Positions 45,520 through 60,659 of a stretch of 64,000 nucleotides of DNA are shown here, one piece after another (position 1 is the stretch's first letter; each line of letters starts with the position of its first letter). Both the position numbers and the translations under genes were made by a program. The DNA is from Candidatus Terasakiella magnetica (GTDB lineage: Bacteria > Pseudomonadota > Alphaproteobacteria > Rhodospirillales > Terasakiellaceae): the NCBI RefSeq assembly GCF_900093605.1, contig NZ_FLYE01000047.1, forward strand, positions 124,001 through 188,000, written 5' to 3'. A model generated the notes under the pieces. That model ran no database searches. It was not told where the DNA came from and was given only the letters and a program-made list of their open reading frames with translations.

Positions 45520-46083
45520 TTGTCTTATGTAGAAGAATTTAAGAGCGCAGTATCTAGAAGTAACGAGAATGGAATTGACGTTACATTCCCATTGATTAAG
45601 AGAAAGCCATATCTCGATAAGAAGACACTCAATAAGTATAGTCGATTTTTCAGTCAAAAATTCACAGATATCGGATATGAAGCATTTAAAGGTCAATGTT
45701 TGGCTATTTCCCAAGCGACGCATGAGTATCTAGAAGAAAAGGTAAAAATACCTTCAATATTGACGTTTGGTTACGTTGTATTAGATGATGATGACTATTT
45801 CAAGCAGGATGAAAACTTCTATTCAGCTTTAGTACGAAACCCTAGCCGTAAACAAAGTGAAAATATTCACGCTTGGGTAACCCTGACAAGTGGTGAGATT
45901 ATTGATCCAACCTTTGCAACATCTTATGCGTATGCTCATGGTATTGAAGAAATGAAGGGTAGCGTTGTTAGCGGCTATGCCGACAAGTTAAATAAGGGCA
46001 TGTCATATCATCCAATGATTGTAGGTTCTGATTTTTTGATCAAAGCTGGATTCATACGAATAGGTCGCTTTGCTCTTACTTGA
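45520..46083 (+). CDS. Transglutaminase-like/papain-fold protein with a Cys-His-Asp triad
   Basis: This protein of about 187 residues has the three catalytic marks of the transglutaminase-like superfamily in order: Cys in GQCLAISQATHEYL, His in NIHAWVTL, and Asp in GEIIDPTFA. Such domains include peptidases, lasso-peptide B proteins and some toxins. Neither a signal peptide nor an added domain is seen. A TTG start at 45520 is chosen because AAAAGGA lies 7 bp upstream; TTG at 45514 is too close. It is monocistronic with its own terminator. Substrate unknown. Confidence 0.6.
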   Translation: MSYVEEFKSAVSRSNENGIDVTFPLIKRKPYLDKKTLNKYSRFFSQKFTDIGYEAFKGQCLAISQATHEYLEEKVKIPSILTFGYVVLDDDDYFKQDENFYSALVRNPSRKQSENIHAWVTLTSGEIIDPTFATSYAYAHGIEEMKGSVVSGYADKLNKGMSYHPMIVGSDFLIKAGFIRIGRFALT

Positions 46084-46130
46084 AATGAAAAAAGGCTAAG
46101 AATCAGCGTTTCTCCGGCTTTTTTCATTTC
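46082..46130. terminator. Long bidirectional terminator
   Basis: GAAATGAAAAAAG (46082-46094) pairs with CTTTTTTCATTTC (46118-46130), giving T-runs on both strands. It separates the Cys-His-Asp gene from the convergent serine recombinase. Confidence 0.8.
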
Positions 46131-46159
46131 GGTGTATTAGTTACAAAATACTGGTGATT

Positions 46160-47647
46160 TCATGGATTACTTAATTCAGATATTGACCACTTTAAAATGG
46201 CTTCATAATTAGGATTAACGAAAATATTTTGAAATTCATCAACTCTAATTTCAGTTATTAGTGAAGCGAAGTCTTTTTGGAACTCAATGTCTTTATATAA
46301 AAGGGCTCCACGTTTTAAATAGTCTTCTAATGGCCTAGTTGCTCTTCCAGCTGGAGTTAATGTTTTTTCTGATCTAGATTTTATTACAGCAAGCCGATGT
46401 TCATATTCTGCAATTTTCTTTTTTATTGAGGGGGTAAGTGTTCCTTTAGCAACGAATTCGTAGAGGTTTGAAAGTTGCACTTTATATTTATTTTGCTCAA
46501 CCGTGATTTCTTGTTTTTGGTCTGAGATGAACTTTTGAACTTTATACAAATTATGATGTCGATTATTTTTCAAGGCTTTTCTTAATTGAATGCTGATTTC
46601 TTCCATTAGTTTTTCTAGTGAAATAGATTTCTTATTTTTGCAGTTTTTGTGTTTGGTATGCTGAATGCAGAAATATCTTTCTTTCTTTTGTAGATTTAGA
46701 GAGCTACCACAACATTTACAAAATAACTTTTGGGTTAATGGGTTTGTTGTTCTTGTTCTGTTGCCTTTGGTTACTAATAGTCGATCTTGTCTCAATCTTA
46801 CTTTTTTTTCAGTTTCTGGATCGATAATTCTTAAAGATGGCATATCTTTAAAAACCCATTCTTCACGCGGGTTTAGTTTCTTCAGTCTTTTTCCTGTAAT
46901 TGGGTCTCTTATGTGCCTTTCTTTGTTAAAGACAATCTGTCCCACATACATAGGATTATTAAGAATACCAATTAATTTTTGCCTGTTTCCTAGTAGCGTA
47001 TTAATTTTCCAGAGTTTACCAGATGGGCTGGGAATGCCATCTTTGTTTAACGTCTCAACGATCTCAGAAAGTAGCAGCCCTTCAGAATATTCTTTATAAA
47101 TACGTTTGATAACTTCTGATTGATCTGGGTTGATTTCACGAAGGCCTCGAATTGGTTCACCTTTTTCATCATATTTTTTGCAAACATTGTAGCCATAACA
47201 AATACCAGAAGCCACTTTACCTCTTTTTACGGCTGCGACTTGGCCACGTTTTGTTTTTTTTGCCACATCGTCCGTGTAGGCTTCAGAAAGATATGCTTTT
47301 ATGGTTAAGCCAGGCTTGTTAAGGCGGCCATCTTGAACTGTATGTAGCTCGACGTCGTTAAATTTTAATAATTTAAAGAAAAAAAGTATGTCTGATTGAT
47401 CACGGCTTATACGATCAAGGGCTTCGCATAGTAATATTACCCCAGGACGTGCTTGGATCACCTCAAGGACTTTCTCAATGCCCTGTCTTTTCATTGTTTT
47501 ACCAGTTATAGCATCGTCAGAGAAAGCTTGAGCAACATAGCCCCCCTGTCGTTCTACATATTCAGTGCATAATTGAATTTGGTCTTCGCAAGACTTTGGA
47601 TTTTGGAGATCAGAGCTATATCTTGCATAAATAATGAATGTTTTCAT
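46160..47647 (-). CDS. Large serine recombinase
   Basis: This 495-residue site-specific recombinase has an N-terminal resolvase domain with the catalytic serine in YARYSSDLQNP (S11 or S12) and the LCEALDRISRDQ motif. A recombinase domain follows from about residue 160 (GICYGYNVCKKYDEKGEPIRG). A zinc ribbon with LFCKCCGSSLNLQ and later FCIQH and NCKNKK comes next, then a coiled-coil stretch. It is of the phage/ICE integrase type and needs no host factor for integration. It is the third unrelated recombinase in the element. Confidence 0.92.
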   Translation of the reverse strand: MKTFIIYARYSSDLQNPKSCEDQIQLCTEYVERQGGYVAQAFSDDAITGKTMKRQGIEKVLEVIQARPGVILLCEALDRISRDQSDILFFFKLLKFNDVELHTVQDGRLNKPGLTIKAYLSEAYTDDVAKKTKRGQVAAVKRGKVASGICYGYNVCKKYDEKGEPIRGLREINPDQSEVIKRIYKEYSEGLLLSEIVETLNKDGIPSPSGKLWKINTLLGNRQKLIGILNNPMYVGQIVFNKERHIRDPITGKRLKKLNPREEWVFKDMPSLRIIDPETEKKVRLRQDRLLVTKGNRTRTTNPLTQKLFCKCCGSSLNLQKKERYFCIQHTKHKNCKNKKSISLEKLMEEISIQLRKALKNNRHHNLYKVQKFISDQKQEITVEQNKYKVQLSNLYEFVAKGTLTPSIKKKIAEYEHRLAVIKSRSEKTLTPAGRATRPLEDYLKRGALLYKDIEFQKDFASLITEIRVDEFQNIFVNPNYEAILKWSISELSNP

Positions 47648-47738
47648 AAGTGGAATTTAAATTCTGAATATTTCTCAACTTCAAAGTAATATACAGACAA
47701 AAAAACTTTAAACAATCACCCTCAAGCGTCTGGCAATA

Positions 47739-48209
47739 TTATTCGGTAATTAGGTCTTCAAAACGTTCAATTTCATTTACAAAATCTTTCTTCGTTTCGT
47801 TAAACCAAGAAAGGCAGTGTATAGTTGATTTGTAATCATCTTTTTCTAAACTATCTAATAATGCAGCGCTAAATTTCTGAATATATATGAGGGATTTGGC
47901 AAGCTCTGGATTTGAGATTGCTGTTTTAGGGAAGTGTGCCAAAGATAAGTCGCGAAATTTCACAAAATCTTCTGTTTTATTTAAGCTCCCTATGAATTCA
48001 CCTTTATCAAGCAGACTGGTAAAAACACGATGAATTTTCTTGGCTTGTGAAACAGCTTCAGACAAATTCTTAACGTTAGTCGTGTAATTTTTTATGATAA
48101 GTAAGAAACCTGTATCAAGTTCTCCAATGCCTCCGATATACTCACCGTCTGCAAAAATATGAAACAATTCGTCGCTTATGGGTTTAATAGTATATTTTAT
48201 CTTACTCAT
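47739..48209 (-). CDS. Unknown protein, 156 residues
   Basis: This soluble protein is mostly helical after a short beta-rich start (FHIFADGEYIGGIGELDTGFLLIIKNY). It has no recognisable motif. A perfect 14-bp palindrome lies 80 bp upstream (48289-48302) and may be its operator. Confidence 0.5.
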   Translation of the reverse strand: MSKIKYTIKPISDELFHIFADGEYIGGIGELDTGFLLIIKNYTTNVKNLSEAVSQAKKIHRVFTSLLDKGEFIGSLNKTEDFVKFRDLSLAHFPKTAISNPELAKSLIYIQKFSAALLDSLEKDDYKSTIHCLSWFNETKKDFVNEIERFEDLITE

Positions 48210-48288
48210 ACTTTTTGTTTATCCATTACCAACTGTACTGAAAATCAAGCATCCACAATTTCATTAATATTTTGAAGAGTTTGATTAG

Positions 48289-48302
48289 TCGCACTAGTGC
48301 GA
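48289..48302. promoter_or_regulatory. Perfect 14-bp palindrome
   Basis: TCGCACTAGTGCGA lies in the 158-bp gap upstream of the 47739-48209 gene and downstream of the parA partner. It may be an operator or partition site; no second copy was noticed. Confidence 0.45.
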
Positions 48303-48367
48303 TTATCTAGGCTAGGTACACTAACTCGCTGTGAAAGGTTGACAATAAGGGGGAGTATTTAACTATC

Positions 48368-48790
48368 TTAATTATCTATAATATCTTTAATAGTTAAGTT
48401 AGCTGCATTATCTCTATTAACTTTATTAGGGCGGATATCTGGTAAATATTTTTCAGGTATCGGTATTCCGTAATCGGCTAGTGCCAATAGCAAAACATCT
48501 TTTTTGCCAATATCAACCAGATCACCATCAGTTTGTTTTAGGTTTTTTGAAAAAGTGTCAAAAACCGTTCTAACAGGTTCTGGAATTCCGCTAAAATTCA
48601 ATTGAACTTTCTTGTCTTTGAATTTTGGCTTAGGCCCTGGCTTCTTTTTGGGTAGGTCTTGATCCAGATTGCGTTCGCCACTTAATGAAGGTTTGTGATT
48701 AACGCTTTGATCAACTTTTTTGTGAAGTTCTTCTTGTGCTAGAACTTCAGCATCATTTAAATTGAAATCTTGAACGCTTCTGCGAGCCAT
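48368..48790 (-). CDS. Partner protein of the ParA-like ATPase
   Basis: This 140-residue protein has a disordered basic first half (KKKPGPKPKFKDKK) and a C-terminal helical domain (PVRTVFDTFSKNLKQ and KKDVLLLALADYGIPIP) that resembles small ribbon-helix-helix or ParG-like centromere-binding proteins. It follows parA by 2 bp on the same strand. A classical ParB is absent. The assignment rests on position, size and charge. Confidence 0.6.
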   Translation of the reverse strand: MARRSVQDFNLNDAEVLAQEELHKKVDQSVNHKPSLSGERNLDQDLPKKKPGPKPKFKDKKVQLNFSGIPEPVRTVFDTFSKNLKQTDGDLVDIGKKDVLLLALADYGIPIPEKYLPDIRPNKVNRDNAANLTIKDIIDN

Positions 48791-48792
48791 TG

Positions 48793-49485
48793 TTACCTCT
48801 TTTTCTTATCGTAATAATCCAGAGCATTTGCGATCTGCAAGGAGGCCAAAACATCTTTTGCGGCTGAACGGGCGTTTCCTTCGAGGAAACCTCCAAAGCT
48901 GATAAAATCCTCAAATAGTGTTCGATGTAGCATTTTTCCATCAAGGACAGTGATATCCTTTGCTTTAGCCTTTTGGATAATCAGCTGACTTGAAATTTTT
49001 GCCATTTTTGTATTGGGTTTGAAGTCTGAGAAGACGATATAAGTAGGAACTTTGAAATTGTCTTCCCCAATGTGGGCTGCTTTAAGAGCAGCTTGTGTTT
49101 CAATCGTTTCAAGAATATGTACCAACCCTTTTGCATCAGGTTTTGCCGCCTTTACAGGGACAAGTATTAAGTCTGAAAGCTGAATGGAATGGTCGGTTGC
49201 TTTTGAATCGATACCAGCAGTATCGATAAGAACAATATCGTATTCTTTTTTGTAAGCGAGAATGAGTTTGGGAAGTGCGCGTTCATCTGTCTCAATCTCA
49301 TAATCAATTTCGATGCCTTGCTTGTTGCAGGCCTCAACGAAATCGGCAAGAGGCGTGAGAGGGTCTGTATCAATCGCAGCAACTTTAGCACCATCTTCAT
49401 GCATCAATGTAGCGATTGAAGCTAAAACCGTGGTTTTGCCAGATCCGCCTTTTTTTTGGACGACTGAGAGAACTTGTCCTGTCAT
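48793..49485 (-). CDS. ParA-like partition ATPase
   Basis: This 230-residue MinD/ParA-family ATPase has the deviant Walker A KKGGSGKTT (residues 11-19), switch I region AAIDTDPLTPLADF and Walker B IVLIDTAG. It is the short form without an N-terminal DNA-binding domain, as in ParF/type Ib partition. With the 140-residue partner it would segregate a replicating form of the element. It is read away from the AT-rich region at 49486-49640, which would hold promoter and centromere. Confidence 0.88.
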   Translation of the reverse strand: MTGQVLSVVQKKGGSGKTTVLASIATLMHEDGAKVAAIDTDPLTPLADFVEACNKQGIEIDYEIETDERALPKLILAYKKEYDIVLIDTAGIDSKATDHSIQLSDLILVPVKAAKPDAKGLVHILETIETQAALKAAHIGEDNFKVPTYIVFSDFKPNTKMAKISSQLIIQKAKAKDITVLDGKMLHRTLFEDFISFGGFLEGNARSAAKDVLASLQIANALDYYDKKKR

Positions 49486-49640
49486 AAAAAATCTCCTTAC
49501 TGGGATATCTATATTAATTCAACTATCTGAATTATGCCAGATAATATGGATATGTCAATTAATTATACTAGTTTAGTTATTATAATTATCTATAATAATA
49601 TTATTATGTGAAATATGGCTGATATCTTAGTTAATTATAA
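49486..49640. promoter_or_regulatory. AT-rich region upstream of parA, possible centromere
   Basis: This very AT-rich stretch has recurring TTAATTATA, AACTATCT and AATTATCTATAATA strings. Similar strings (AACTATCTTAATTATCTATA) recur at the 3' end of the operon near 48362. This is the usual place for the parA promoter and the partner-binding centromere repeats. No strict iteron could be fixed. Confidence 0.45.
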
Positions 49641-49652
49641 TAGCAGTGTTCC

Positions 49653-49847
49653 GGCCACGCCCTAAACGGGCGCGAAGTTATTTGCGCCCCTATGGGGCTT
49701 TGGCCCTTCGCCCGAATACTCAATCCCAAGCCCTACGGGTTAAAAGGGGCTCGTGTCCTCGGCTACGCCTGCGGGCCGCGCAATCGCCCCTTTTAAGGGT
49801 TGATTATTCTCCTCCGCTTTTTGTCTGCAAGTAAGAAGTCGAAACGG
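49653..49847 (+). repeat. Structured repeat R1, copy 1, upstream of the SSB-like gene
   Basis: This is a ~195-bp element found three times. The main stem pairs 49714-49726 with 49797-49809 and, inside it, TTAAAAGGGGC (49740-49750) with GCCCCTTTTAA (49786-49796). Smaller hairpins: GCCCC-TAT-GGGGC near 49686 and an outer CGGGCG/CGCCCG pair. An anti-Shine-Dalgarno-like CTCCTCC follows at 49809-49815. The SSB-like gene starts 55 bp downstream. Confidence 0.85.
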
Positions 49848-49901
49848 GCATCAGCTCATTGACTTAATTTTAAAATACATCAAATTGCAAAGGACTAAAT
49901 C

Positions 49902-50243
49902 ATGTCACAGTCATACAAATACACAGGCCACTCTGAAGCGAAATTTAACTTTGAAGGTCGTCTTGTTTCTATTAACGAGAAAGAAGGTAAAACCTATATC
50001 TCCATTGGAACGACCAAGCATTATCAAGATGCAAATGAAGAATGGCAAGAAAGAGATATGATCCATTTCACACAGACATATTCTCCAGTCATCATTGATA
50101 AAGTCAAGAAGTGGAACCCCGGCGATATTATCAAATTGAAAGGTGATGTTGAATCTTGGCAATCTGGTGAAGGCGATACATTTGAATGTGGTTCAAATCA
50201 TATCGTCAAAACAGCAAAGCGCATCGCCATTAAGCAAGTTTAA
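49902..50243 (+). CDS. Single-stranded DNA-binding-like protein (OB fold)
   Basis: This 113-residue protein looks like a single OB-fold domain: KFNFEGRLVSINEKEGKTYISIGTTKHY, WQERDMIHFTQTYSP, and WNPGDIIKLKGDVESW match the strand pattern of plasmid SSB-like proteins. It lacks the acidic C-terminal tail of chromosomal SSB. A protein covering incoming single-stranded DNA is a typical leading-region product of conjugative elements. AAAGGA precedes the ATG; R1 copy 1 lies upstream. Confidence 0.72.
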   Translation: MSQSYKYTGHSEAKFNFEGRLVSINEKEGKTYISIGTTKHYQDANEEWQERDMIHFTQTYSPVIIDKVKKWNPGDIIKLKGDVESWQSGEGDTFECGSNHIVKTAKRIAIKQV

Positions 50244-50315
50244 TTTGAAATTGGAGAGGGTATTTGAACTCTCTCCATTTTCTGCTATATTATACCTATA
50301 AGGAGTTACACTAAT

Positions 50316-50549
50316 ATGTCTGGTACTAAAACAGCGTCAAATGCAGAACTAATTGCCAAAATAGATGAACTTGAATCCTTTGTTGGGGCCGAAGTTCGTG
50401 AAATGCGCAATATGGTTACTGAAATGATGCAAACAGTAGGCTTTGTTTCTGGTCGTGTTGAAGAACAATCAAAAAGAATAGATGATTTAAGGCGTCATGT
50501 TCCAACTGTTGTTGGAGTGCACCCTAAAGGGGCTGAACCAGCGGAGTAA
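50316..50549 (+). CDS. Small coiled-coil protein, unknown
   Basis: This 77-residue protein is mostly one helix or coiled coil (IAKIDELESFVGAEVREMRN and FVSGRVEEQSKRIDDLRRH) with a flexible acidic end. It has AAGGAG upstream. It follows the SSB-like gene by 72 bp and ends 20 bp before a terminator, so the two form one transcript. Not recognised. Confidence 0.55.
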   Translation: MSGTKTASNAELIAKIDELESFVGAEVREMRNMVTEMMQTVGFVSGRVEEQSKRIDDLRRHVPTVVGVHPKGAEPAE

Positions 50550-50569
50550 GGTTAAATAAATGGAGTAAC

Positions 50570-50601
50570 AAGGCACTGGCTTTAAAGTCGGTGCCTTTTT
50601 T
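50570..50601 (+). terminator. Intrinsic terminator
   Basis: AAGGCAC (50570-50576) pairs with GTGCCTT (50591-50597), then more T. It closes the SSB-like transcript. Confidence 0.85.
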
Positions 50602-50633
50602 GTTGCGCGAATCTGTATGGCGTTAGACGTTGG

Positions 50634-50897
50634 GCGAGTGTGTGGCAAATTCGGTTAGGTCGCTTCGCGAACTAATCATATTCCGAATTTGCCACACACT
50701 CGCTAGACGCGCCTTTTTAGCTGTGGGCATTGAGGCGCGTCTATGACCTATGGATATGTGGACAATCGCAAGCGAACGGCGATTTTACCCACCGCCGCAA
50801 GCGTCCGTGGATAAAAACACCTTTGACCACATAGCCACAGGCCACAACAACCTAGTTCCGTAGCACCGCTTTGCGGCGCAAGTTGTCTATTTGTCTG
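50634..50897. repeat. Structured repeat R2, copy A
   Basis: Four hairpins in a row: a perfect 21-bp inverted repeat (50634-50654 with 50683-50703); AGACGCGCCT (50705-50714) with AGGCGCGTCT (50733-50742); a long arm whose inner part is TTTTACCCAC (50783-50792) with GTGGATAAAA (50817-50826); and CCGC-TTT-GCGG at 50866-50876. The same four recur in copy C with different bases but kept pairing. Confidence 0.85.
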
Positions 50898-50950
50898 GGA
50901 ACTGACATTAAAACTCCTGCTTAAGCTAATGAATAATTATCGTTTAGCCA

Positions 50951-51108
50951 ATGGGGTTAGGCCCTTCGCCCAAAAATTCAACCCCAAGCCCTTCGGGTCA
51001 AAAGGGGCTCGTGTCCTCGGCTACGCCTGCGGGCCGCGCAATCGCCCCTTTTGAGGGTTGAATTTTTTCCTCCGCTTTTTGTCTTCAGGTGAAGAAAGCG
51101 AAACACAC
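50951..51108 (+). repeat. Structured repeat R1, copy 2, upstream of the methyltransferase gene
   Basis: This copy lacks the left ~45 bp of copies 1 and 3. The main stem is AAAAATTCAACCC (50972-50984) with GGGTTGAATTTTT (51055-51067), perfect over 13 bp, and inside it TCAAAAGGGGC (50998-51008) with GCCCCTTTTGA (51044-51054). CCTCC follows at 51069-51073. The methyltransferase gene starts at 51127. Confidence 0.85.
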
Positions 51109-51126
51109 AATAGCGGAGTATCTAAA

Positions 51127-53166
51127 ATGAAAACCTCAAATGTAATCAACTTTCCCACCAAAATTGAAACATTAACTTTAGGTTTGCCAGTCGTTTCAAC
51201 ACATGGCCACAAAGAAGGCTATATTGTTGATGTAAGAGAGCTAAAAAATAAAACTTGCATGCTCATTGGTTCTGGCATGAAACCAGAAAAGCATGAATAT
51301 CAAGTTGCTTGGTGCGATGATAAAAAACAGCCGCATTCGTTAGATTGGTATCTTGAAAGCCTAACTCTCGAATTCGCAGAAAATGCAGTTAATCAAAATC
51401 TTTTTATGTCTTTAACAGAATTGGAGATTGCTTTTTATCAAACAGGTGCAGCGGCCGCAACAGCAGATAGAAGAAGAAAGCAAGAGCATGAACAAAATCT
51501 AAAGGCTGTTGAACGTGCGTCTTTCTTGCTCGATGCTGAAGACAAATTTAAAGAAGCAACAAAACAATTAGGGCAAGAGCCTAAATCTATAATTGTTGCG
51601 GAACTCATTCAAAATAAGAGTGATTTACAATCTGATTATTGGGGGCATAGCACCCTTAAAACTATCATTTTAGGTTTTTCAAAATCAAAGCGCCAAAATT
51701 TCAATGAAATGCGCAAAATGGCAATTAATGCCAAAGAAACAAAGCACCTTGTGGAAATGGGAAAGGATGCAGAACACCGTGACGCAGGTCATTATTGTAA
51801 TGGTTTTTATCTGAAGGATGGTCACGAACACGCCAGTGGATGGCAGATCGTCAAGAATGAACTTTATAGTGGTGTAGAAAGTATTCCATCTGGTGAATGG
51901 TGTTTATCTCCTTTTGAAATTTCAACAAAGATAGAAAAGGAAATCGCAAAGCAAACTGAAAATTCAACATTTGAAATTGAAGAACACACGCACACTAAAA
52001 AAGGCTTTCAAATGTTTATTGCTGTGCCTCAATTTGAAGCTGAAAGAGAAACCTTTGTAGATTGGCGTGAAAAGGCGAGAGCTTTAGGCGGTTGGTATTC
52101 AAAGAAATGGGGAAAGACACCACGAGGTTTTGCATTCAAATCAATAGAAGCAGCAAAAGAGTTTGTTTCTTTGTTTGATCAAGGCACAGATCCAGACGGA
52201 CCAAACACACCACAGCCTAAAAAGAAAAATGAAACAGTTAAGAAATCACCTTCTAATAAGTTTCGTGAACTAGCCGACAATATGCAAAAACAGATTGACG
52301 ACAAATTATGTTCAAACCGTTTAGCAAATACTCCAAAGCGTCAAAAAGAAGCTGGATATGCTCGGATCGACGGGAACCATTTAAAACGTACACAACAAGC
52401 TTTGCGCATTCTTGCAAACCTTCATGATGAAAATAAAGTTCCTGAAGAATTAAAAAACCTAAAAAGTAAAAAGGCAATTCATGAGCTTACACAAAGCAAA
52501 TTAGACACTTCAAATTGTGGTTACTATGACACGGCAATTGATACAAACAAACCTTATCATGATACAGCACAGTCGAAAATTTTGTGGAGCTTGCTTGAAG
52601 GTCCAAGCGAAGAAGAACAAAAAGCGGAAGCATTGAGACGAGATATTGAAAGTCTCGCATTCTCAAAAATTCCGGGATATTTCCCAACGCCCAAAAGCAC
52701 AATCAAAAATAAAATGTTGCCATATGCACAAATTGAAAAAGGTATGCGTTGTTTAGAACCTCAAGCTGGAAGCGGTTATATTGCCGATGAGTTAGGCGAG
52801 GGCGTTGATTGTTGCGAAGTAAATCACAGCTTACGTGAGATTTTAAAAAAGAAAGGTCATTTCTTAATCGGTGATGATTTCTTGAATTTAGAACCAACAC
52901 CACTTTATGACCGCATTGTGATGAACCCACCATTTGAAAATGGTCAAGATATTGATCACGTACAACATGCATTTCAATTTTTAAAACCGGGTGGTCGATT
53001 GGTAGCGATTACTAGCCAAGGGGCATTCTTCCACAGCACAAAAAAAGCAAAAGCGTTTCAAGAATGGATAAATAACGTTGTTGAACATATGGAAGATTTA
53101 CCCGCCAGAGAATTTAAAGAAAGCGGAACTAATGTTTCATCAAAATTAATTGTTTTGATGAAATAG
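51127..53166 (+). CDS. DNA adenine-type methyltransferase with long N-terminal extension
   Basis: This 679-residue protein ends in an N6-adenine-type SAM methyltransferase domain: RCLEPQAGSGYIADELG (motif I region, ~540), the catalytic NPPF in IVMNPPFENGQDIDHV near residue 599, and LKPGGRLVAITS. No target-recognition partner or nuclease is near, so it is an orphan methylase. A middle segment, ALGGWYSKKWGKTPRGFAFKS, is seen in large plasmid-borne proteins of this kind. The first 130 residues are unassigned. In a transfer leading region it would fit modification of incoming DNA against host restriction (inference). The start at 51127 excludes the R1 repeat from the coding region. Confidence 0.8.
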   Translation: MKTSNVINFPTKIETLTLGLPVVSTHGHKEGYIVDVRELKNKTCMLIGSGMKPEKHEYQVAWCDDKKQPHSLDWYLESLTLEFAENAVNQNLFMSLTELEIAFYQTGAAAATADRRRKQEHEQNLKAVERASFLLDAEDKFKEATKQLGQEPKSIIVAELIQNKSDLQSDYWGHSTLKTIILGFSKSKRQNFNEMRKMAINAKETKHLVEMGKDAEHRDAGHYCNGFYLKDGHEHASGWQIVKNELYSGVESIPSGEWCLSPFEISTKIEKEIAKQTENSTFEIEEHTHTKKGFQMFIAVPQFEAERETFVDWREKARALGGWYSKKWGKTPRGFAFKSIEAAKEFVSLFDQGTDPDGPNTPQPKKKNETVKKSPSNKFRELADNMQKQIDDKLCSNRLANTPKRQKEAGYARIDGNHLKRTQQALRILANLHDENKVPEELKNLKSKKAIHELTQSKLDTSNCGYYDTAIDTNKPYHDTAQSKILWSLLEGPSEEEQKAEALRRDIESLAFSKIPGYFPTPKSTIKNKMLPYAQIEKGMRCLEPQAGSGYIADELGEGVDCCEVNHSLREILKKKGHFLIGDDFLNLEPTPLYDRIVMNPPFENGQDIDHVQHAFQFLKPGGRLVAITSQGAFFHSTKKAKAFQEWINNVVEHMEDLPAREFKESGTNVSSKLIVLMK

Positions 53167-53180
53167 AAGGGCGCGAAATT

Positions 53181-53264
53181 ATGAATATATATAATTTTCT
53201 AAAAAATGCCTTTGGGCTTTCGTTCTTTCTTTTCTCAATAGTTATTTTCTTTTCAATTCAATAA
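53181..53264 (+). CDS. Membrane micropeptide, 27 residues
   Basis: The frame encodes a short hydrophobic peptide (FGLSFFLFSIVIFFSIQ) 14 bp behind the methyltransferase stop. Its stop overlaps the next start (TAATG). AAGGGCG lies upstream. Coupling supports it; nothing else does. Confidence 0.4.
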   Translation: MNIYNFLKNAFGLSFFLFSIVIFFSIQ

Positions 53265-53623
53265 TGGGTGTATGTAACATGTCTAACAAAATTAAAATAG
53301 TTTGTACCTCTTGTGGTAATAACGAAATCTTAGTTGATGCATATGCGACATGGAGTATTGAACTGCAAAAATATGAATTAAGCTCAACCTTTGAAAAAGC
53401 GCACTGTGAAAAATGCGATTGCATGGTTTCATTTCATGAAGTGAAAATAGATGCTGATCCAGAAGAACAAACTAAGCCGCAAAATACATTACAAAAGATA
53501 ATGGCTGCGGAAAATATTCTAAACGTTTGGCTTATTGATCATACAGAAAACGTATTTGAAGAATTCCCTGAGATTGATGAAGCGCGACTGTTGTTGTCGG
53601 AATGTCTTGAGGTAATGAAATAA
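53264..53623 (+). CDS. Small zinc-ribbon protein, unknown
   Basis: This protein of 119 (or 114, from 53279) residues has a zinc ribbon, CTSCGNNEI and HCEKCDCMVSFHEV, in its first half and a helical acidic second half. It probably belongs to the methyltransferase transcript and ends before a terminator. Not recognised beyond the ribbon. Confidence 0.6.
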   Translation: MGVCNMSNKIKIVCTSCGNNEILVDAYATWSIELQKYELSSTFEKAHCEKCDCMVSFHEVKIDADPEEQTKPQNTLQKIMAAENILNVWLIDHTENVFEEFPEIDEARLLLSECLEVMK

Positions 53624-53633
53624 AAAAAAATCG

Positions 53634-53665
53634 GGTGCTGCGGAAAATGCGGCACCTATTTTTTT
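53634..53665 (+). terminator. Intrinsic terminator
   Basis: GGTGCTGC (53634-53641) pairs with GCGGCACC (53649-53656), one T-G pair included, followed by TATTTTTTT. It closes the methyltransferase/zinc-ribbon transcript. Confidence 0.85.
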
Positions 53666-53691
53666 GTTTTCATTTTTGCGGCATTGCTAAT

Positions 53692-53887
53692 GGCCGCACC
53701 CTAATCGGGCGCGAGGTTGTTTAACGCCCCTATGGGGCTTAGGCCCTTCGCCCGAATATTCAATCCCAAGCCCTTCGGGTCAAAAGGGGCTCGTGTCCTC
53801 GGCTACGCCTGCGGGCCGCGCAATCGCCCCTTTTGAGGATTGATTATTCTCCTCCGCTTTTTGTCTGCAAGTAAGAAGTCGAAGCGG
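53692..53887 (+). repeat. Structured repeat R1, copy 3
   Basis: Full-length copy, close to copy 1. The main stem pairs 53754-53766 (GAATATTCAATCC) with 53837-53849 (GGATTGATTATTC) and TCAAAAGGGGC (53780-53790) with GCCCCTTTTGA (53826-53836). CTCCTCC follows at 53849-53855. The next gene starts at 53908. Confidence 0.85.
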
Positions 53888-53907
53888 TATTAACCAAGGA
53901 GCTTAAA

Positions 53908-54177
53908 ATGTTTATCATCATCAAAAGAGATATTCCATCTTCCATCAATGAGAACATTATGTGTGACTTTGAAAAGGCAGCAATGCTTCTTACAAAACCT
54001 TGTCATATCTCTTTTATCTTCGAAGGTTTCTTTAATGATGATGAAACTCAAATCACAAAAGACAATACAAAATACACTCACCTTGAAGAAAGGTTAGAGC
54101 AGTATAAAGCAAAAGCAATCGCAGCACGTCAAAGGAGTGTCGCAATCTTTAAATCAAAACAAGAGCAAGTAGGGTAA
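53908..54177 (+). CDS. Unknown protein, 89 residues, behind R1 copy 3
   Basis: The product has a beta-rich first half (FIIIKRDIPSS, HISFIFEGFFNDDE) and a charged helix at the end (LEERLEQYKAKAIAARQRS). It has AAGGAG upstream. Not recognised. Its place behind an R1 element in the presumed leading region makes it a candidate establishment or anti-defence protein. Confidence 0.55.
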   Translation: MFIIIKRDIPSSINENIMCDFEKAAMLLTKPCHISFIFEGFFNDDETQITKDNTKYTHLEERLEQYKAKAIAARQRSVAIFKSKQEQVG

Positions 54178-54189
54178 AGGAATTATAAA

Positions 54190-54420
54190 ATGATTTATTT
54201 CTTCACTAACAATAAGGTCGATAACATCACAAACAGTCTTGATGATCTAGTCGTTAACGATCTTGAAGGGGAACATATTATTACAATTGCCAATAATGGT
54301 CTTTGGACAAAAGAGAAGATCGAAAATTTAAACTATAGTGATGTATGGCCAGATGGAATGAATGATAAAGGGGCTAATGCATACTTAGGTGATAAATGGG
54401 TTGGGACAACAGAGGATTAA
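54190..54420 (+). CDS. Unknown small acidic protein, 76 residues
   Basis: This acidic protein (pattern VDNITNSLDDLVVNDLEGEH, WTKEKIENLNYSDVWPDG) lies 12 bp behind the preceding gene with AAAGGA upstream, so it is cotranscribed. Not recognised. A terminator follows. Confidence 0.55.
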   Translation: MIYFFTNNKVDNITNSLDDLVVNDLEGEHIITIANNGLWTKEKIENLNYSDVWPDGMNDKGANAYLGDKWVGTTED

Positions 54421-54446
54421 ATTATCTAATTCATTAAACAGATTAG

Positions 54447-54475
54447 GGTGCTGCATTACGCAAGCACCTTTTTTT
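54447..54475 (+). terminator. Intrinsic terminator
   Basis: GGTGC...TGC and GCA-A-GCACC form a bulged stem followed by TTTTTTT. It closes the two-gene transcript. From here to 55346 I see no credible gene, only repeats, the oriT candidate and a promoter. Confidence 0.8.
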
Positions 54476-54697
54476 GTGTCTGACAAAATGAACGAAAAAT
54501 AGAAACAGTAAACATCAATTCCAATTGCGCAAAGCGCGTAGACTTTCTTAGTTTCCACGATTTTAAAATGTAAAATGATGTGAGGTGGTGTTTTAAAAAC
54601 TTGCATTAAAGCCCCTCGCGACCTGAAGACAAAATATTATAAGCATCCGATGAGGCAATGCGGTTTCAACTATCTACATTCCTAAACCAATACAATG

Positions 54698-54808
54698 CGT
54701 TGATGTGGATATATGGACAATCGCAAGCGAACGGTAAAGTTACCCACCCCCTTCGGGCATGGATAACTATACCTTTGACCACATATCCACATTAGAACAC
54801 AACAACTC
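54698..54808. repeat. Structured repeat R2, copy B (third hairpin only)
   Basis: ATGTGGATATATGG at 54703-54716 pairs with CCACATATCCACAT (54779-54792) with one mismatch. The inner arm AGTTACCCA (54738-54746) pairs with TGGATAACT (54760-54768) around CCC-TTC-GGG. The conserved CGCAAGCGAACGG and CCTTTGACCACATA strings are shared with copies A and C. Confidence 0.8.
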
Positions 54809-54892
54809 ATGATGAGAGTTGCAGAAAAGGTATGTTGATTTTTTAATAATTATTCTCGCTGAATGCGATGCTCTTACGATCATCGCGGGCGG

Positions 54893-55150
54893 GGCGGGGG
54901 TGTGGCAAATTCGGTAAGGCCGCTTCGCGAACTTATCATTTTCCGAATTTGCCACACCCCCGCCAAGGCGCGCCTCTTTAGCAATGAGGGCATTGCGGCG
55001 CGCCTATGGCCTGTGGATATATGGACAATCGCAAGCGAACGGCACAGTTACCCACCCCCTTCGGGCATGGATAACTGCACCTTTGACCACATACCCACAG
55101 GCCACAACAACCCTTTGATGAAGCGCTACGCGCAAGTTGTTTGTTTGTCT
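54893..55150. repeat. Structured repeat R2, copy C
   Basis: Full-length copy: a 22-bp perfect inverted repeat (54893-54914 with 54943-54964); AGGCGCGCC (54966-54974) with GGCGCGCCT (54997-55005); outer arm 55008-55024 with 55087-55103 and inner AGTTACCCA (55046-55054) with TGGATAACT (55068-55076); and GCGC-TAC-GCGC at 55123-55133. It lies about 130 bp from the oriT candidate. Confidence 0.85.
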
Positions 55151-55162
55151 GAAGTCAACTCG

Positions 55163-55180
55163 TGTCTCCCTTTGGAGACA
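55163..55180. repeat. Short perfect hairpin
   Basis: TGTCTCC and GGAGACA with a 4-nt loop, between R2 copy C and the relaxase promoter. No T-run follows. Confidence 0.5.
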
Positions 55181-55274
55181 ATACGGTTTTTCACCTGATG
55201 TATGACCTAAACAAAGAAAAGGGAATGAGTATGTAAGTTACCGTTCTGGCGTTAATACGACGTAGGAGTATTTC

Positions 55275-55302
55275 TTGACGACATGCGCACTTATTGTATA
55301 AT
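55275..55302 (+). promoter_or_regulatory. Promoter of the relaxase gene
   Basis: TTGACG (55275-55280), 16 bp, TATAAT (55297-55302), a strong sigma-70 match. It overlaps the oriT candidate, so the relaxase bound at oriT would be expected to repress its own gene. Confidence 0.75.
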
Positions 55303-55328
55303 GCTTCCACTTCGTGAAAACATTATAC
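55281..55328 (-). other. Candidate origin of transfer (oriT)
   Basis: On the minus strand, inverted arms GTATAATG (55328-55321) and CATTATAC (55303-55296) are followed at once by AA and TAAGTGCG then CATG. MobQ-type oriTs such as RSF1010 have the same order: inverted repeat, then TAAGTGCG with the nick right behind it. The nick would lie between 55286 and 55285 of the minus strand, 60 bp from the relaxase gene. Confidence 0.7.
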
Positions 55329-55346
55329 GTGGGCCTACGGCGTTTT

Positions 55347-58300
55347 ATGGGTTGGATACATTATCAGCGGCAAGTTATTTACCGACATGGAGGTAATCTC
55401 CAATCAGTTGGTAATGCTGCATATATCCATCGTCGCGAAGGATATGACACGCTCAATAGAGAGCATTTCAATTACACAGATAGAGATGATCTTTTGTCTT
55501 CAGGAATGACAGTTCCAGATGATGCACCAGAGTGGATTAAGCAACATGCGCGTGATGGAAGTTATGTTGAGTTCTGGGAAGATATTGAAAATCGTGAAAA
55601 TCAATATTTAGAAAACCGCTGGCACAAACAAACCAGTGACACGATTTTAGAAAAACAAGCAAAGGCAATGTCTTATTTTCGTGAGATCGTTGCTATTCCA
55701 AATGAGCTTAATAAAGAACAGTCTGTTCGCTTTATTGAAGATTTCATAAAAGAGAGTTATGCGGATAGAGGCATAGTCACACAGCACGCAATCCACTGGG
55801 AAGATAATAATCCACACGCACACATCATGGGTGTTGTGCGCAAGGTTAATGAACAAGGTCTTAGTTCACGCCATGCAGATTTTGGTTCTACATTTTTTAA
55901 ACAACGCGATTTACTGGAATTGTCTCGTAAGACATATGCAGATATCGGAAACCGTCATTTAGTGGAAGCAGGACATGAACCACGCTTAGATCATCGTTCT
56001 TACAAAGATCAAGGTTTGGATATCGAACCAACTGTGCATGAAGGATATCATGCGCGAAAGATGCATGAAGAAGGGAAAACATCAAAACTCGTAAGTGAGA
56101 ATGATCGTATCAGAGCAGATAGGGCCGCTAAGTTCGATAAAGTAGCGGATATGATTGTTAAGGATATCAATCTCACCAAGGCGACATTTACAGAAGCAGA
56201 CCTTATGCGCCAAGTATCAAACGTTGTTGGTGAGGATTTGACCGCCTATAACGTTCTATCTGCTAAGGTTATGGCACATCAAGACCTTGTGAAAGTTGGT
56301 GTTGATCTACGTGGAAAAGATCGTTTCTCAACAATTCAATATGTTGAAACAGAGAAAAAGATGTTTGCGGCCTTGGATCGTTTGCAAGCACAAGAAACAG
56401 CCATTTCAATCAATCATGAACGAGTGAATGAGAAGATTGCAAAAGATTTCTCTTTTCTAAATAGGCAACAGCGAAGAGCAATCGAACGTATTATTTCTAA
56501 AGAGAGTATTGTTGTCATTGAGGGTAGGGCTGGTTCCGGTAAGACAACACTTGTGGAAGTCGCAGCTGATGAACTGAAAACATCCGGTTATAAGGTTCGT
56601 GGTATGTCACTTGCCGGGGCGGCAGCAGAAAATCTTGAATTAGAGGCAGGCGTTAAATCAACTACAATTGATAAGTTCCTCTATCCAGACAAGCTGCGTG
56701 AAGATGCAGAGGTTGCTTTGCAATCTGGCAAGAAAGATTTAGCGGCAGCATTGATTGAACGTGCAGAGCGTCTTGAGATTGATCAGAAGCTTCTTCCCAA
56801 TGAAGTTGTCTTTGTCGATGAAGCGGGTATGTCTGGCACTAAACATCTTGAAAAGGTTCTCACTAAAATTGCCGATGCAGGGGCCAAGGCGGTTCTTATT
56901 GGTGATAGTGCGCAGAAAAAGTCAGTTGCGGCGGGTGGAGCCTTTGAGGAGATATCCAGACGAACAAACGCAACTATTCTTTCTGATATTCGTCGTCAGA
57001 ACATTGAATGGCAGAGAGAAGCTAGTATCAATCTTTCAGATGGTGATGTTCGTAAAGCCCTTCACGCATACAATGATCATGATCGTGTTTTCATTGGTTC
57101 ACGCCAAGAGATGTTTGAAAATCTCGTTGGTGATTATGTCGGCTCATTGCAGGGTGAAATCAAGAATACTGCCGAACGTTTGACGATGGCCGCGACGAAT
57201 AAAGACGTTGGTGAATTGAATGCAGCTATTAGGGAAAGGCTTGTTGAAAGAGAACTTATAGAGAATACACATAACATCCGTGGGCGAGATTGGGGTGTTA
57301 ATGATCGTATCGTATTCCTGAAGAATGAAAATAACGATCTTAACGTGAAGACTCTTTCAGGTGATGGGGTAGGGGTCAAGAACGGTTCATCCGGTTTCGT
57401 TGAACAGATCTTTGAAAAAGGCAAGGCCGTTTACTTTGATGTTCGCCTAGATAGTTCAGAACGATTAGTGCGTTTTCGCGCAGATCATGGAAACGTCAAT
57501 TTCAATCATGCCTATGCTGTCACAATTGATAAAGCGCAGGGTAAAACCGTTGACCGGGCCTTCCTATGGTCATCTGAGCATATGAGAAGTGATGCAGCCT
57601 ATGTAGGTCTGACACGCCACCGGGACGATGTGAAACTTTATGCTGATGATCATCTTATAGCTGGTGATGTTGATGATCTGGCCAGTGTCTTTAATCGCAC
57701 AGACAATAAAGATCTGGTTTCTGATTATAACCCGCCAGATAATCTTGTGGGTGTTCAGCAAGATATGAACCGTTTCCGTGAAATCGGTGATGAACTTAAA
57801 TCCATGTATTCCGATATGCAATTGGAGGCCTTGGAGCAGAATAAAGAATTTTATGAACTGGAAGGCTTTGAAACTTTCTCTGAGTTAAGTGCAGAACGAA
57901 ATGACCTGGCAAGGCGGGCATTAGATGATTGGAAAGACTATGCAAAGGCTGTTCGTCAAATTAACGTGACACAGGAACAGCTAAAAGTTCTCGTCGGTGA
58001 TATGGATAAACCACTTACGAAAATTGAAAAGGTCGCCTTTGAACAGTTGCGTGATTACGCCGATGTAACAGAACATGCGCGAGACCTCTGGAATGAAATT
58101 AAGGTAAGTCATCCTGGTTACGCTAGCCGCTTGCATCCTAAATGGCAAGAGTACGACCAATTGCGCCTGGAACGTAATGGCTACGCTCATAAGTTCCTTC
58201 AGGAAAAAGAACTATACGGTCCATTGGTGAAGTTTGTTAAAGACAAAGCGAAGGATCAAAAAAGTCCACATGCGATGGTCAAGAATGGAGAAAAGCCAAA

Positions 58301-60026
58301 ACAGCGCATTAGCTGGAAGGGGATCAAGTCACAGGCGCAGCAATATGAAAGTGTCATTGATCTGCGTAAAATTAAAGTAAGTGCAGATGATATTGCATTC
58401 TCTAATATTGACAAAGTTGAAACTTATATTGATGCACGTTCATTAGCAGCGAATACATATGAAGAATTAAAAGACCAAAAAATAGCAACGAAATCACCAA
58501 TATTTGAAATTGAAGGGTATAGCAAATGGCGTGAACAAATGGCCAAAGTGGAGCGAATGGCATTTACCTTGCGTGAAGATGGTCAAACTGATATTTGGCG
58601 TTTGCATGGGATTAAAGAAACAGAAATTCATCGTCATGCACGTAATCATGAATTACGACTTGCCATTGATGATTATAATCAAGTGCCAACTAACGATTAC
58701 AAAACTCGTGATGCAAAAGCATTTGGTATTGAGAGTATCGTTGCTCAAGACCCTGAAAAACGGGCAGGGAAAGCCGTTGTTGGTTTGGCCAAAGAAGTTG
58801 AATCCGACTATTGGAAGATTAAACGTCATGCCGCATATCATGAGTTACGTGGTTTAGATCGTGTTGGTGACAAGATCGACGCAGGCCGCATCATGGAACA
58901 TTATGATAGAGCCAGCCGCGCTGTCAGTGAATTGCGCAAAGAAGCCAAAAGAGCAGGGCTGAAGCCTTGGGGTGATCTTTATGGTGATCGTCATCGGGAT
59001 CTGATTAAACAACGTGAGAAAGCAGCATGGACTATTCATAATCGTGGTTTAGAAAGTGTGGCTACAAAGTCTTCAAAATATCCAGAAATGTTCCGCAAGG
59101 ATGTTTTGAGCCACGGCATTAGAAATGCACTTGAAGGCTATAAGAAAGCTGAAGAGATTGGCCAACTGCAAGTGCGTGATAAGAAGGCTGCGGAGGTTAT
59201 GCAGCGTCTTAATCAGCATCCAGCATATAAGATAGCTAAACATATGGGTGGTTACGCTTGGAGCGAAGGCGTGTCACTTTATAGTGTTAAAGAGAATGCT
59301 TACTTCCATACAATGCGTAATATTGCCCTGTCTAAAGGTCATGAACAGGTGGCCAAAGTTGTGGACGCCACGCAGGAGTATATGAATATTCGCCGCCGGG
59401 TTGGCCTGGCCGGAGATATTATGGCGAAGACAGGCAATAAAGAACTCTTCAAAAAAGAACTTCATTTGCGCAATAAGCAAGCTTCAAAAATTGTTGAACT
59501 CGGTGGTTCTGAATTTACGACCAAACTGGGGCTGAAGCCGGAACAAGTTAAAGAACAGGCCAAGGCATATCGACTTGATAAAGCTATCACGGCTTATACG
59601 AAAGCTGATGAACTGAAACTTAACAAAGGGCGGATTGCACTTGATATTGTAAGATATGGGGTAGATGTAACAGGGAAGTTCGATAAAGAAACAGCACAGC
59701 TTCTGAAAAGAACAGGTATTGAACAAGAAGTGCTTAAAAGAGATGCGTCAAATGCCATTATGCGAGATCGTATTCAACAGGGTAAGGATGCCGATGGTAA
59801 GCCAGCACAGACAGTACGTGACCAGATTAATGATCATAAATTCAAAGACGCATTTGCTGAAGATCGACAAACGGCTAACAAACACCGCAATGCATTTGAA
59901 GCATTAGAGAAAGAAACCAGAGAGCTCAAAGATTATTATCGTCAAAAACAGGCGACAGATGCTGTTCAGAAATCACTGAAGCCGATGAAAGCTATTGTCA
60001 AAGGTTTGGATCTGGATGGGCCATGA
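55347..60026 (+). CDS. MobQ/TraA-type relaxase fused to a TraI-like helicase
   Basis: This protein nicks oriT, stays bound to the 5' end, and unwinds the transferred strand. It has 1559 residues from the ATG at 55347, chosen because the protein then starts with the relaxase strand (GWIHYQRQVIYRHGG). Relaxase domain: candidate nucleophile Y in VGNAAYIHRREG and the histidine triad HxDxxxPHAH-like stretch HAIHWEDNNPHAHIMG near residue 146. Helicase part: Walker A GRAGSGKTT near residue 392, VVFVDEAGMSG, DIRRQN, and the late VTIDKAQGKTVDRAFLW. About 700 C-terminal residues are helical and unassigned. It is cotranscribed with nothing obvious. Confidence 0.9.
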   Translation: MGWIHYQRQVIYRHGGNLQSVGNAAYIHRREGYDTLNREHFNYTDRDDLLSSGMTVPDDAPEWIKQHARDGSYVEFWEDIENRENQYLENRWHKQTSDTILEKQAKAMSYFREIVAIPNELNKEQSVRFIEDFIKESYADRGIVTQHAIHWEDNNPHAHIMGVVRKVNEQGLSSRHADFGSTFFKQRDLLELSRKTYADIGNRHLVEAGHEPRLDHRSYKDQGLDIEPTVHEGYHARKMHEEGKTSKLVSENDRIRADRAAKFDKVADMIVKDINLTKATFTEADLMRQVSNVVGEDLTAYNVLSAKVMAHQDLVKVGVDLRGKDRFSTIQYVETEKKMFAALDRLQAQETAISINHERVNEKIAKDFSFLNRQQRRAIERIISKESIVVIEGRAGSGKTTLVEVAADELKTSGYKVRGMSLAGAAAENLELEAGVKSTTIDKFLYPDKLREDAEVALQSGKKDLAAALIERAERLEIDQKLLPNEVVFVDEAGMSGTKHLEKVLTKIADAGAKAVLIGDSAQKKSVAAGGAFEEISRRTNATILSDIRRQNIEWQREASINLSDGDVRKALHAYNDHDRVFIGSRQEMFENLVGDYVGSLQGEIKNTAERLTMAATNKDVGELNAAIRERLVERELIENTHNIRGRDWGVNDRIVFLKNENNDLNVKTLSGDGVGVKNGSSGFVEQIFEKGKAVYFDVRLDSSERLVRFRADHGNVNFNHAYAVTIDKAQGKTVDRAFLWSSEHMRSDAAYVGLTRHRDDVKLYADDHLIAGDVDDLASVFNRTDNKDLVSDYNPPDNLVGVQQDMNRFREIGDELKSMYSDMQLEALEQNKEFYELEGFETFSELSAERNDLARRALDDWKDYAKAVRQINVTQEQLKVLVGDMDKPLTKIEKVAFEQLRDYADVTEHARDLWNEIKVSHPGYASRLHPKWQEYDQLRLERNGYAHKFLQEKELYGPLVKFVKDKAKDQKSPHAMVKNGEKPKQRISWKGIKSQAQQYESVIDLRKIKVSADDIAFSNIDKVETYIDARSLAANTYEELKDQKIATKSPIFEIEGYSKWREQMAKVERMAFTLREDGQTDIWRLHGIKETEIHRHARNHELRLAIDDYNQVPTNDYKTRDAKAFGIESIVAQDPEKRAGKAVVGLAKEVESDYWKIKRHAAYHELRGLDRVGDKIDAGRIMEHYDRASRAVSELRKEAKRAGLKPWGDLYGDRHRDLIKQREKAAWTIHNRGLESVATKSSKYPEMFRKDVLSHGIRNALEGYKKAEEIGQLQVRDKKAAEVMQRLNQHPAYKIAKHMGGYAWSEGVSLYSVKENAYFHTMRNIALSKGHEQVAKVVDATQEYMNIRRRVGLAGDIMAKTGNKELFKKELHLRNKQASKIVELGGSEFTTKLGLKPEQVKEQAKAYRLDKAITAYTKADELKLNKGRIALDIVRYGVDVTGKFDKETAQLLKRTGIEQEVLKRDASNAIMRDRIQQGKDADGKPAQTVRDQINDHKFKDAFAEDRQTANKHRNAFEALEKETRELKDYYRQKQATDAVQKSLKPMKAIVKGLDLDGP

Positions 60027-60253
60027 TGGAAAGTGATTCCATTTTGATACCTATTCTTCCCGGGTAATCATGTCTTCAGCAGCAGATCTCGTGCCGGCAA
60101 TGCTTCTGTAACTGAAGAAATAGGACAGCGTCTGTGACGTAAAAACGTGCCGACCGCGGCTAATCCGGAGATCGATCGCAAACCAGGTATGCCATATTAG
60201 AGCAGATAGACTTACCTTTTTTATTCATAGAACGTACAAGCTATTCTGGTCAC

Positions 60254-60613: not shown

Positions 60614-60659
60614 TATTCTACAATGCTGTAAAGGGTGAAGAAAAAAAGTCTAGCACTGG

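Follow-up and report, generated by a model that had tools for sequence, protein, structure and literature searches.

A 64,000-nucleotide stretch of DNA from Candidatus Terasakiella magnetica (contig NZ_FLYE01000047.1, positions 124,001 to 188,000; hereafter the window) contains three copies of a folded repeat, R1, each directly 5' of one group of genes and near a start codon. Sequence comparison supports the view that this part of the window forms the leading region of a conjugative element, either integrated or carried on a plasmid, whose relaxase is Ti-type TraA-like, and R1 is apparently a widespread entry-region hairpin, unnamed so far. The fuller reading, of a leading region in which R1 would be a single-strand entry promoter or initiator unlike Frpo and the accompanying repeat R2b a priming hairpin, carries about even weight in our judgement. 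A broader proposition is offered tentatively: R1 may represent a new class of strand-specific folded single-stranded DNA entry-control site, read via a fixed apex and at most a -35-like box, by which many unrelated relaxase systems in conjugative elements of alpha-, beta- and gamma-Proteobacteria would express anti-defence and establishment genes before second-strand synthesis. We infer three points here, namely that the single-stranded DNA folds, that R1 starts transcription and that R2b primes synthesis.

In the proposed mechanism, the minus strand would enter the recipient first, starting from the transfer origin (oriT) at about 55285 and running toward 49650. On this entering strand, R1 would fold into a stem with a fixed apex, once per gene group, and act as an entry control site. 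It would most likely recruit transcription to the incoming strand, and with it primer synthesis, filling the role of the Frpo/ssi sites (ssi, second-strand priming site) of the F plasmid by another code, a fixed apex on a free apex-near stem; a TTGACA-like box, present at the base of the stem in about half of the sequence clusters, may be part of this code. R2b would probably load DnaB and primase for second-strand synthesis, as A-site (ABC-primosome) hairpins do.

Most known single-strand promoters come from F- and IncI-type plasmids. Frpo-type leading-region promoters and their benefit for anti-defence genes have been published (PMC11541004, PMC7736820). The search in PMC11541004 proceeded via similarity to known Frpo or a -35/-10 consensus, and Frpo-similarity searches would miss an element like R1. 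With its apex and covarying stem, R1 offers a searchable signature for leading regions in integrative and conjugative elements (ICEs) and plasmids with MOBP, MOBQ and MOBF relaxases, and it points to candidate establishment or anti-defence operons, among them the ones that Tn4371-type ICEs carry in plasmids of clinical isolates. A further question is whether polymerase can be recruited to an incoming single strand by a conserved loop, be there a -35-like box or not.

Structure of R1

The three R1 copies of the window lie on the plus strand. R1a, the reference copy of 163 nt (49685 to 49847; core start 49753; 47.9 bits), heads the group of a candidate SSB-like gene. R1b (50943 to 51105; 80% against the reference; core start 51011; 46.2 bits) heads the methyltransferase group, and R1c (53725 to 53887; 96%; core start 53793; 47.3 bits) heads the two small genes nearest oriT. 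R1a and R1b match R1c at E values of 9e-57 and 8e-47; the host genome yielded no further match at E up to 0.001, and 59 other genomes sampled as relatives yielded none.

The apex of R1 reads CCGTGTCCTCG-SCTNCGS-CTGCGGGCCGCRCCA. Its invariance is partly a product of selection, because the pattern used for collection fixes 20 apex positions, but conservation extends beyond the pattern to a CC before the apex (130-132 of 135) and a CCGC after it (127-131 of 135). The stem near the apex shares little sequence between families while its complementarity is kept, and pairing of the arms exceeds the 95th percentile of shuffled arms in 103 of 133 instances. The inner three-base stem exchanges GGC/GCC for GCC/GGC. 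In the 10-sequence seed of the R1 model, hand-picked for one loop size, all seven modelled outer pairs change on both sides, a score reached by none of 500 shuffles. The model search covered 82 sources and gave 102 matches; over their 86 distinct rows, the covariation score is 0.41, compared with 0.12 when shuffled (0 of 500) and at most 0.09 when the alignment is slid.

A TTGACA-like box (at least 5/6) follows the core in 21 of 41 clusters, where 2.6 would be expected. It stands mostly 47-51 nt past the core start, and its complement occurs in the left flank of 15 of these 21 clusters. In about half of the clusters, the base of the stem is closed by an inverted pair of TTGAC-like boxes (core +47 to +51). 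An opposite-facing box is found in 21 of 42 clusters (5.3 expected), accompanied by a -10 of 4/6 in 3 of 21. The original prediction had noted no canonical -35/-10 pair inside the stems; the TTGACA-like box nevertheless recurs at the stem base, without a -10 toward the gene. A complete sigma-70 promoter in the R1 stem is accordingly not supported. The box cuts both ways.

Distribution of R1 and the genes behind it

In a blastn search with R1c, the apex was matched in 123 of 72,556 plasmids, of which 105 are typed as conjugative, 8 as mobilizable and 10 as non-mobilizable; homologues are therefore not found mostly outside transfer elements, the outcome that would have spoken against the original prediction. 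Many of these plasmids may carry an inserted ICE, though; in four annotated cases, a conjugative plasmid holds R1 inside a Tn4371-type ICE. A scan of 84,980 species genomes located the apex pattern in at least 119 genome stretches, which rules out a local repeat of one genome; the genera among the matches listed include Ruegeria, Paracoccus, Variovorax, Achromobacter, Pseudomonas and Stenotrophomonas. Class-wide sampling had a low yield, with matches in 2 of 385 genomes, in 1 of 36, and in 18 of 394 in one family. The same pattern gave 13 matches in IMG/VR, at least four of them probably due to chance; chance-like matches with weak stems are L025, L101 and the viral contigs L141-L143 and L145.

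R1 as a known structured RNA is not supported by Rfam, none of whose 4227 families matched it at E up to 1 (window positions 46000-61000 and L004-L007); the best matches in window 46000-61000 were miRNA models on the R2a repeat, under their cut-offs. In a search of openly licensed PMC text, none of the titles listed described R1 and none of five apex strings turned up. R1 homologues also occur on very small or mobilizable plasmids (L020, 1765-1826, a 2,015-bp Cobetia plasmid; L019, 4674-4733) and, on resistance plasmids, next to genes of recombinases, Tn3 transposons or integrons (L181, 19992-20049; L017, 12711-12768).

The first downstream gene was recognised for 87 of 133 R1 instances (46 were unnamed), and 83 of the 87 lie on R1's own strand and point away from it. 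DUF932 genes account for 51; other genes behind R1 encode an ArdC-like zincin, DUF3768, ParB, a 348-aa protein followed by a DUF4942 protein, and small proteins. Genes were named with annotated proteins from R1 neighbourhoods of nine loci as tblastn queries, so the names are biased toward these; calling genes by open reading frame (ORF) length or BLAST support was abandoned because of many shadow ORFs in GC-rich loci.

The window fits this pattern through its 679-aa protein (51127 to 53166 from an ATG start, plus strand), which has a C-terminal DNA-methyltransferase-like part. Its N-terminal part is homologous to the 348-aa protein that follows R1 in Leisingera and Tritonibacter plasmids: the 679-aa protein is 34% identical over 354 aligned columns to the one directly behind R1 in a Leisingera plasmid, the tail shares 29% identity with a DUF4942 protein, and a Tritonibacter plasmid has matches to the two pieces side by side behind R1. 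R1 and this gene therefore travel together across distant plasmids. The orphan methyltransferase that had been described as in the right place is thus, in its N-terminal part, related to a gene behind R1 elsewhere. Over domain parts it shares 31-38% identity with plasmid methyltransferases among the matches listed. By position it may be likened to M.EcoGIX and M.BceJIII, single-strand-specific leading-region methyltransferases that are likewise plasmid-encoded in an early-entering region.

Transfer origin and strand polarity

The polarity of transfer is predicted from the region just ahead of the gene for a Ti-type TraA-like relaxase-helicase (55314 to 60026, plus strand; the true start may be the ATG at 55347). 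This protein has MobA/MobL and RecD-like domains and matches the TraA_Ti model at E 5e-134, yet under the model's curated cut-off; it is about 27-32% identical to plasmid TraA proteins, mostly from Sphingomonadales among the matches listed. Directly before the gene, an inverted repeat on the minus strand is followed by AATAAGTGCGCATG. The oriT candidate as a whole spans 55279 to 55328 (minus), with repeat arms at 55321-55328 and 55296-55303 and then AATAAGTGCG/CATG. The nic-like motif YAAGTGCGCNNNNCG occurs a single time in the window (55279-55293, minus; 0.02 expected).

Three relatives among TraA plasmids, picked among the matches listed, all carry a hairpin and then ATAAGCGCGC at the equal place and strand (read by eye). 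Hairpin and ATAAGYGCGC thus stand on the minus strand, with the predicted oriT adjoining the TraA gene, in the window and in the three relatives examined, which supports the oriT call; the exact AAGTGCGC was not found near traA in these relatives, where a looser comparison matched. We take the nick to fall between 55286 and 55285 of the minus strand, by analogy with MOBQ nick sites. The minus strand is then predicted to enter first, from about 55285 toward 49650, and would therefore be the template of all six leading-region genes. The transfer polarity and template role first proposed for the transferred strand (T-strand) are in this way supported by the relatives, with a nick that is predicted.

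It had also been suggested that R1/R2 homologues be followed up for a place upstream of leading genes, on the template side of the T-strand. For R1, on 29 contigs with a relaxase, 42 of 50 copies lie on the relaxase strand and 40 of these are also upstream of the relaxase, at 1.5-37 kb. The count comprises 34 of 67 collected copies (33 without a PF03432 match on their contig were dropped) and 16 from the window and annotated records; some relaxase matches fall under the Pfam cut-off, and the copies are not independent. The rule is obeyed in the window, in a Paracoccus plasmid and in four Tn4371-type ICEs. The G475 and W06 copies lie on the relaxase strand, but not upstream in linear coordinates.

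The Tn4371-type ICEs allow a comparison with a mapped origin. Their order is R1-DUF932-ParB, followed further on by an S26 peptidase gene and the relaxase gene, with R1 about 11-14 kb before the latter in four records. The oriT of the Tn4371 family has been placed experimentally between traF and traI (PMC11448139). Taking the annotated S26 peptidase as TraF, R1-DUF932-ParB would lie on the traF side, which is the leading side of the mapped oriT. For two genes in this part of the element, an earlier family paper notes a likeness to proteins whose genes lie close to the transfer origin of F (PMC2789088). The window element shares the leading-side position of R1 with these ICEs, but differs in its TraA-like (MOBQ) relaxase and in its other genes. 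The excerpts of two Tn4371-family papers make no mention of R1.

The R1-DUF932-ParB arrangement was recorded in L180 (3077-6054), L183, L184 and L186. The hosts of these ICE plasmids are clinical Enterobacter, Citrobacter and Pseudomonas aeruginosa, and also P. putida S12; the ICE in L180 carries efflux genes as cargo. A block, GCGGGCGATGAACTCAGGAA, is fully conserved in Tn4371-type leaders 80-100 nt past the core start.

Folded DNA or leader RNA

The original prediction had left R1 as either a single-strand promoter or a leader RNA. The two possibilities differ in how lost pairs should appear: G.U for a folded transcript, and A.C on the plus strand (G.T on the minus) for a folded template strand. 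When the arms are aligned in a strand-neutral way, isolated mismatches comprise 45 distinct A.C contexts and 16 G.T contexts, where base composition predicts a ratio near 1.1. Counted by cluster, 20 of 42 are A.C-rich and 7 G.T-rich (p=0.019), the safer figure, since related sequences enter the strand tests as if partly independent. Family alignments point the same way: on pairs common to both folds, distinct mismatch types favour A.C by 6 to 4, 8 to 1 and 6 to 4, and an extended Tn4371-type alignment does so by 10 to 4. The plus strand also has an excess of CC, CT and TC mismatches, which fits template-strand folding as well as a base-composition bias. With DNA parameters, the template (minus) strand folds better relative to shuffles in 32 of 51 cases (mean z -1.69 against -1.31; p=0.003). 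These results favour R1 acting as single-stranded DNA, a reading drawn from patterns of substitution and predicted folding.

The sites that R1 would most resemble in function are Frpo/ssi of F and ColIb-P9. These too are hairpins in several copies before leading operons (ssb, DUF932, ParB, anti-restriction) for which the T-strand is the template, and R1 shows a TTGACA-like box in its folded stem in about half of the clusters. The two differ in that the apex of R1 is fixed and a -10 match is absent, whereas searches for Frpo depend on a -35/-10 in the fold (PMC11541004). The F plasmid has repeats upstream of ssb and upstream of genes with DUF932. As a weak control, the template strand folds better in 11 of 14 overlapping windows of its repeated region upstream of ssb and in 5 of 11 windows of the gap upstream of its antirestriction gene. 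The R1 model did not find R1 in the leading region of F (50000-69000), where the best score was 12 bits at E 0.5; R1 as F's Frpo is accordingly not supported. By gene context, R1 takes the place of Frpo without being F's Frpo.

A number of results weigh against an entry-control site made of single-stranded DNA. With RNA parameters, neither strand folds better (p=0.47), and the outer stem of the model-based alignment is balanced between A.C (15 cells) and G.T (14); at one apex pair, 18 of the 86 rows have T.G, which favours the transcript strand. Pairs changed on both sides number 8 in that 86-row alignment and 7.3 in shuffles, which is not above expectation. No -10 (at least 4/6) lies 15-19 nt gene-ward of the TTGACA-like box in any of 21 clusters, the window copies have TTGATT at the box position (only 4/6), and the window stretch has about as many promoter-like sites as chance would give (13 versus 11.3). 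A few R1 homologues are found on a 2-kb plasmid, beside Tn3 or integron genes, or on plasmids typed as non-mobilizable. The Tn4371-type leaders can be aligned over about 480 nt (core -260 to +220), far past R1, which suits a regulatory RNA too.

The strand rule itself has exceptions that belong with these. Eight of the 50 copies lie opposite to the relaxase strand, at least six of them apparently from a single ParA-linked subfamily, which nonetheless stands before a small-gene operon. In L005 (5992), L016 (22369) and L182 (19992), the copy lies between a ParA operon and small genes; those of G786 and G473 have flanks like the ParA-linked ones, and that of G875 is similar to a copy from Paracoccus with the same ParA pair next to it. 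G884 and G881 hold the other two of the eight. An R1 beside a ParA operon is also seen at 10219 of the L007 plasmid, in which no relaxase was found.

The main rival for R1 is a structured 5' leader RNA made from an upstream promoter, with R1 as its top, that would control translation or termination of establishment operons as a riboregulator or antiterminator. It gains from the position of R1, which stands in front of genes and follows their orientation also where the ParA-linked subfamily departs from the T-strand rule, from the long alignable leader of the Tn4371-type ICEs and from the T.G apex pair; by sequence, CTCCTCC in R1a and R1c could also pair with the ribosome site. RNA families normally show a strong G.U excess, and the transcript strand has none, either in the arm contexts or in the model-based alignment, nor does Rfam hold a family that matches R1. 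We consider the leader RNA rather unlikely. For the alternative left by the original prediction, the mismatches thus lean toward the template strand, while the model alignment is neutral and at least six copies are contrary.

R2 hairpins and second-strand priming

R2b appears to differ in kind from R1 and looks like a DnaA-box-bearing candidate priming hairpin. Its three window copies are branched hairpins on the minus strand: a diverged copy with DnaA-box-like sequences around 50750 to 50850, the 88-nt reference at 54704 to 54791, and the copy nearest oriT at 55007 to 55104, within which the repeat match covers 55012-55099. They fold at -33.2, -26.3 and -24.4 kcal/mol on the minus strand and at -25.3, -21.5 and -20.3 kcal/mol on the plus strand, and the gaps in their plus-strand stems are mostly A.C, equal to G.T on the minus strand (read by eye). 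The relative L193 behaves likewise (minus -23.4, plus -20.4 kcal/mol); L194, stronger on the plus strand (minus -18.9, plus -21.4), counts against the reading. The R2b segment GACAATCGCAAGCGAACG is shared unaltered by an Acinetobacter plasmid and with a single difference by a Citrobacter plasmid, and at E up to 1 the wider match extends to 24 plasmids, of which 14 are from Acinetobacter.

A DnaA-like box (at least 8/9) is present in all five R2b elements, where 0.04-0.13 would be expected per element, the three window copies being related. The boxes of the window are 8/9 (shuffle P 0.0025, 0.0125 and 0.04), that of L193 is 9/9, and L194 has one of 8/9 (P 0.06). It is established that a DnaA-box hairpin loads DnaB on SSB-coated single strands (PMC6127211). 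Together with the minus-strand fold and the boxes, this makes R2b a candidate priming site. Like the ABC-primosome A-site, R2b would be a T-strand hairpin with DnaA-box-like sequences; unlike it, R2b is branched, with a conserved GACAATCGCAAGCGAACG segment, boxes of 8/9 in the window and a putative priming role. The reading makes second-strand priming by DnaA-box hairpins testable in conjugation.

The companion repeat R2a is an inverted repeat on the minus strand, with 21-bp perfect arms at 50634 to 50703 and 25-bp arms of 96% complementarity at 54893 to 54964; this hairpin (GTGTGGCAAATTCGG...) is paired with R2b at two of three sites. R2 elements sit in two places, one after the second gene and ahead of R1b, the other in the interval from the last gene to oriT. 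They had been placed next to two R1-headed transcripts and before oriT; the copies before oriT are there, but R2 adjoins one R1 (R1b), not two.

That R1 itself is mainly a second-strand priming site, with its place before genes secondary, is a distinctly improbable reading. Several R1 copies are spread over leading regions, Frpo itself primes synthesis (PMC7736820), and one R1 copy resides on a 2-kb plasmid both of whose proteins lack a Pfam match; the window, however, has one R1 per gene group near the start codon, R1 elsewhere fronts genes of the same strand, and R2b already fits a priming site better. It is very improbable that R1 is bound by a protein as double-stranded or cruciform DNA, or that it is a mobile repeat travelling with these regions: some copies do lie beside transposon or integron genes, identical copies occur inside single elements, and in 15 of 21 clusters the TTGACA-like box has its complement in the opposite arm and so forms a palindrome, but a duplex site has no need of an apex-near stem that is free yet complementary, and R1 keeps a fixed relation to downstream genes.

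Other genes and flanks of the leading region

A mechanical ORF list, from which six genes were chosen by the analyst, places all of these genes on the plus strand in three groups; together with the repeat positions, it bears out the original description of three transcripts each preceded by R1. Besides the methyltransferase-like gene, they encode a 77-aa protein (50316 to 50549) with a weak HSBP1 match under the cut-off, a 119-aa protein with CxxC pairs (53264 to 53623), an 89-aa protein (53908 to 54177) and a 76-aa protein (54190 to 54420), the last three being ORFs with no family assigned, and the 113-aa candidate OB-fold or SSB-like protein (49902 to 50243). The last lies where an SSB-like protein had been described, but its identity is weak: Pfam gave no family at E up to 0.5, NCBIfam gave two spurious matches, tblastn against plasmids gave no match, and the predicted b-b-b-a-b-b fold has low confidence (predicted local distance difference test score, pLDDT, 46). 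An SSB or OB-fold assignment is thus possible and unproven.

Terminator-like hairpins close the first and second gene groups (50570-50597 and 53633-53657); over 49600-54200, there are 8 terminator-like sites, compared with 4.8 in shuffles. At the far end of the leading region, a ParA/VirC1-like ATPase gene, assigned from domain matches, lies on the minus strand (48793 to 49485). Just past the leading region, a large serine recombinase with resolvase, recombinase and zinc-ribbon domains is encoded at 46160-47647 (minus), and this enzyme may have integrated the element, which would then be an ICE. From 36 kb onward in the window, the GC content drops from 0.42-0.49 to 0.35-0.43.

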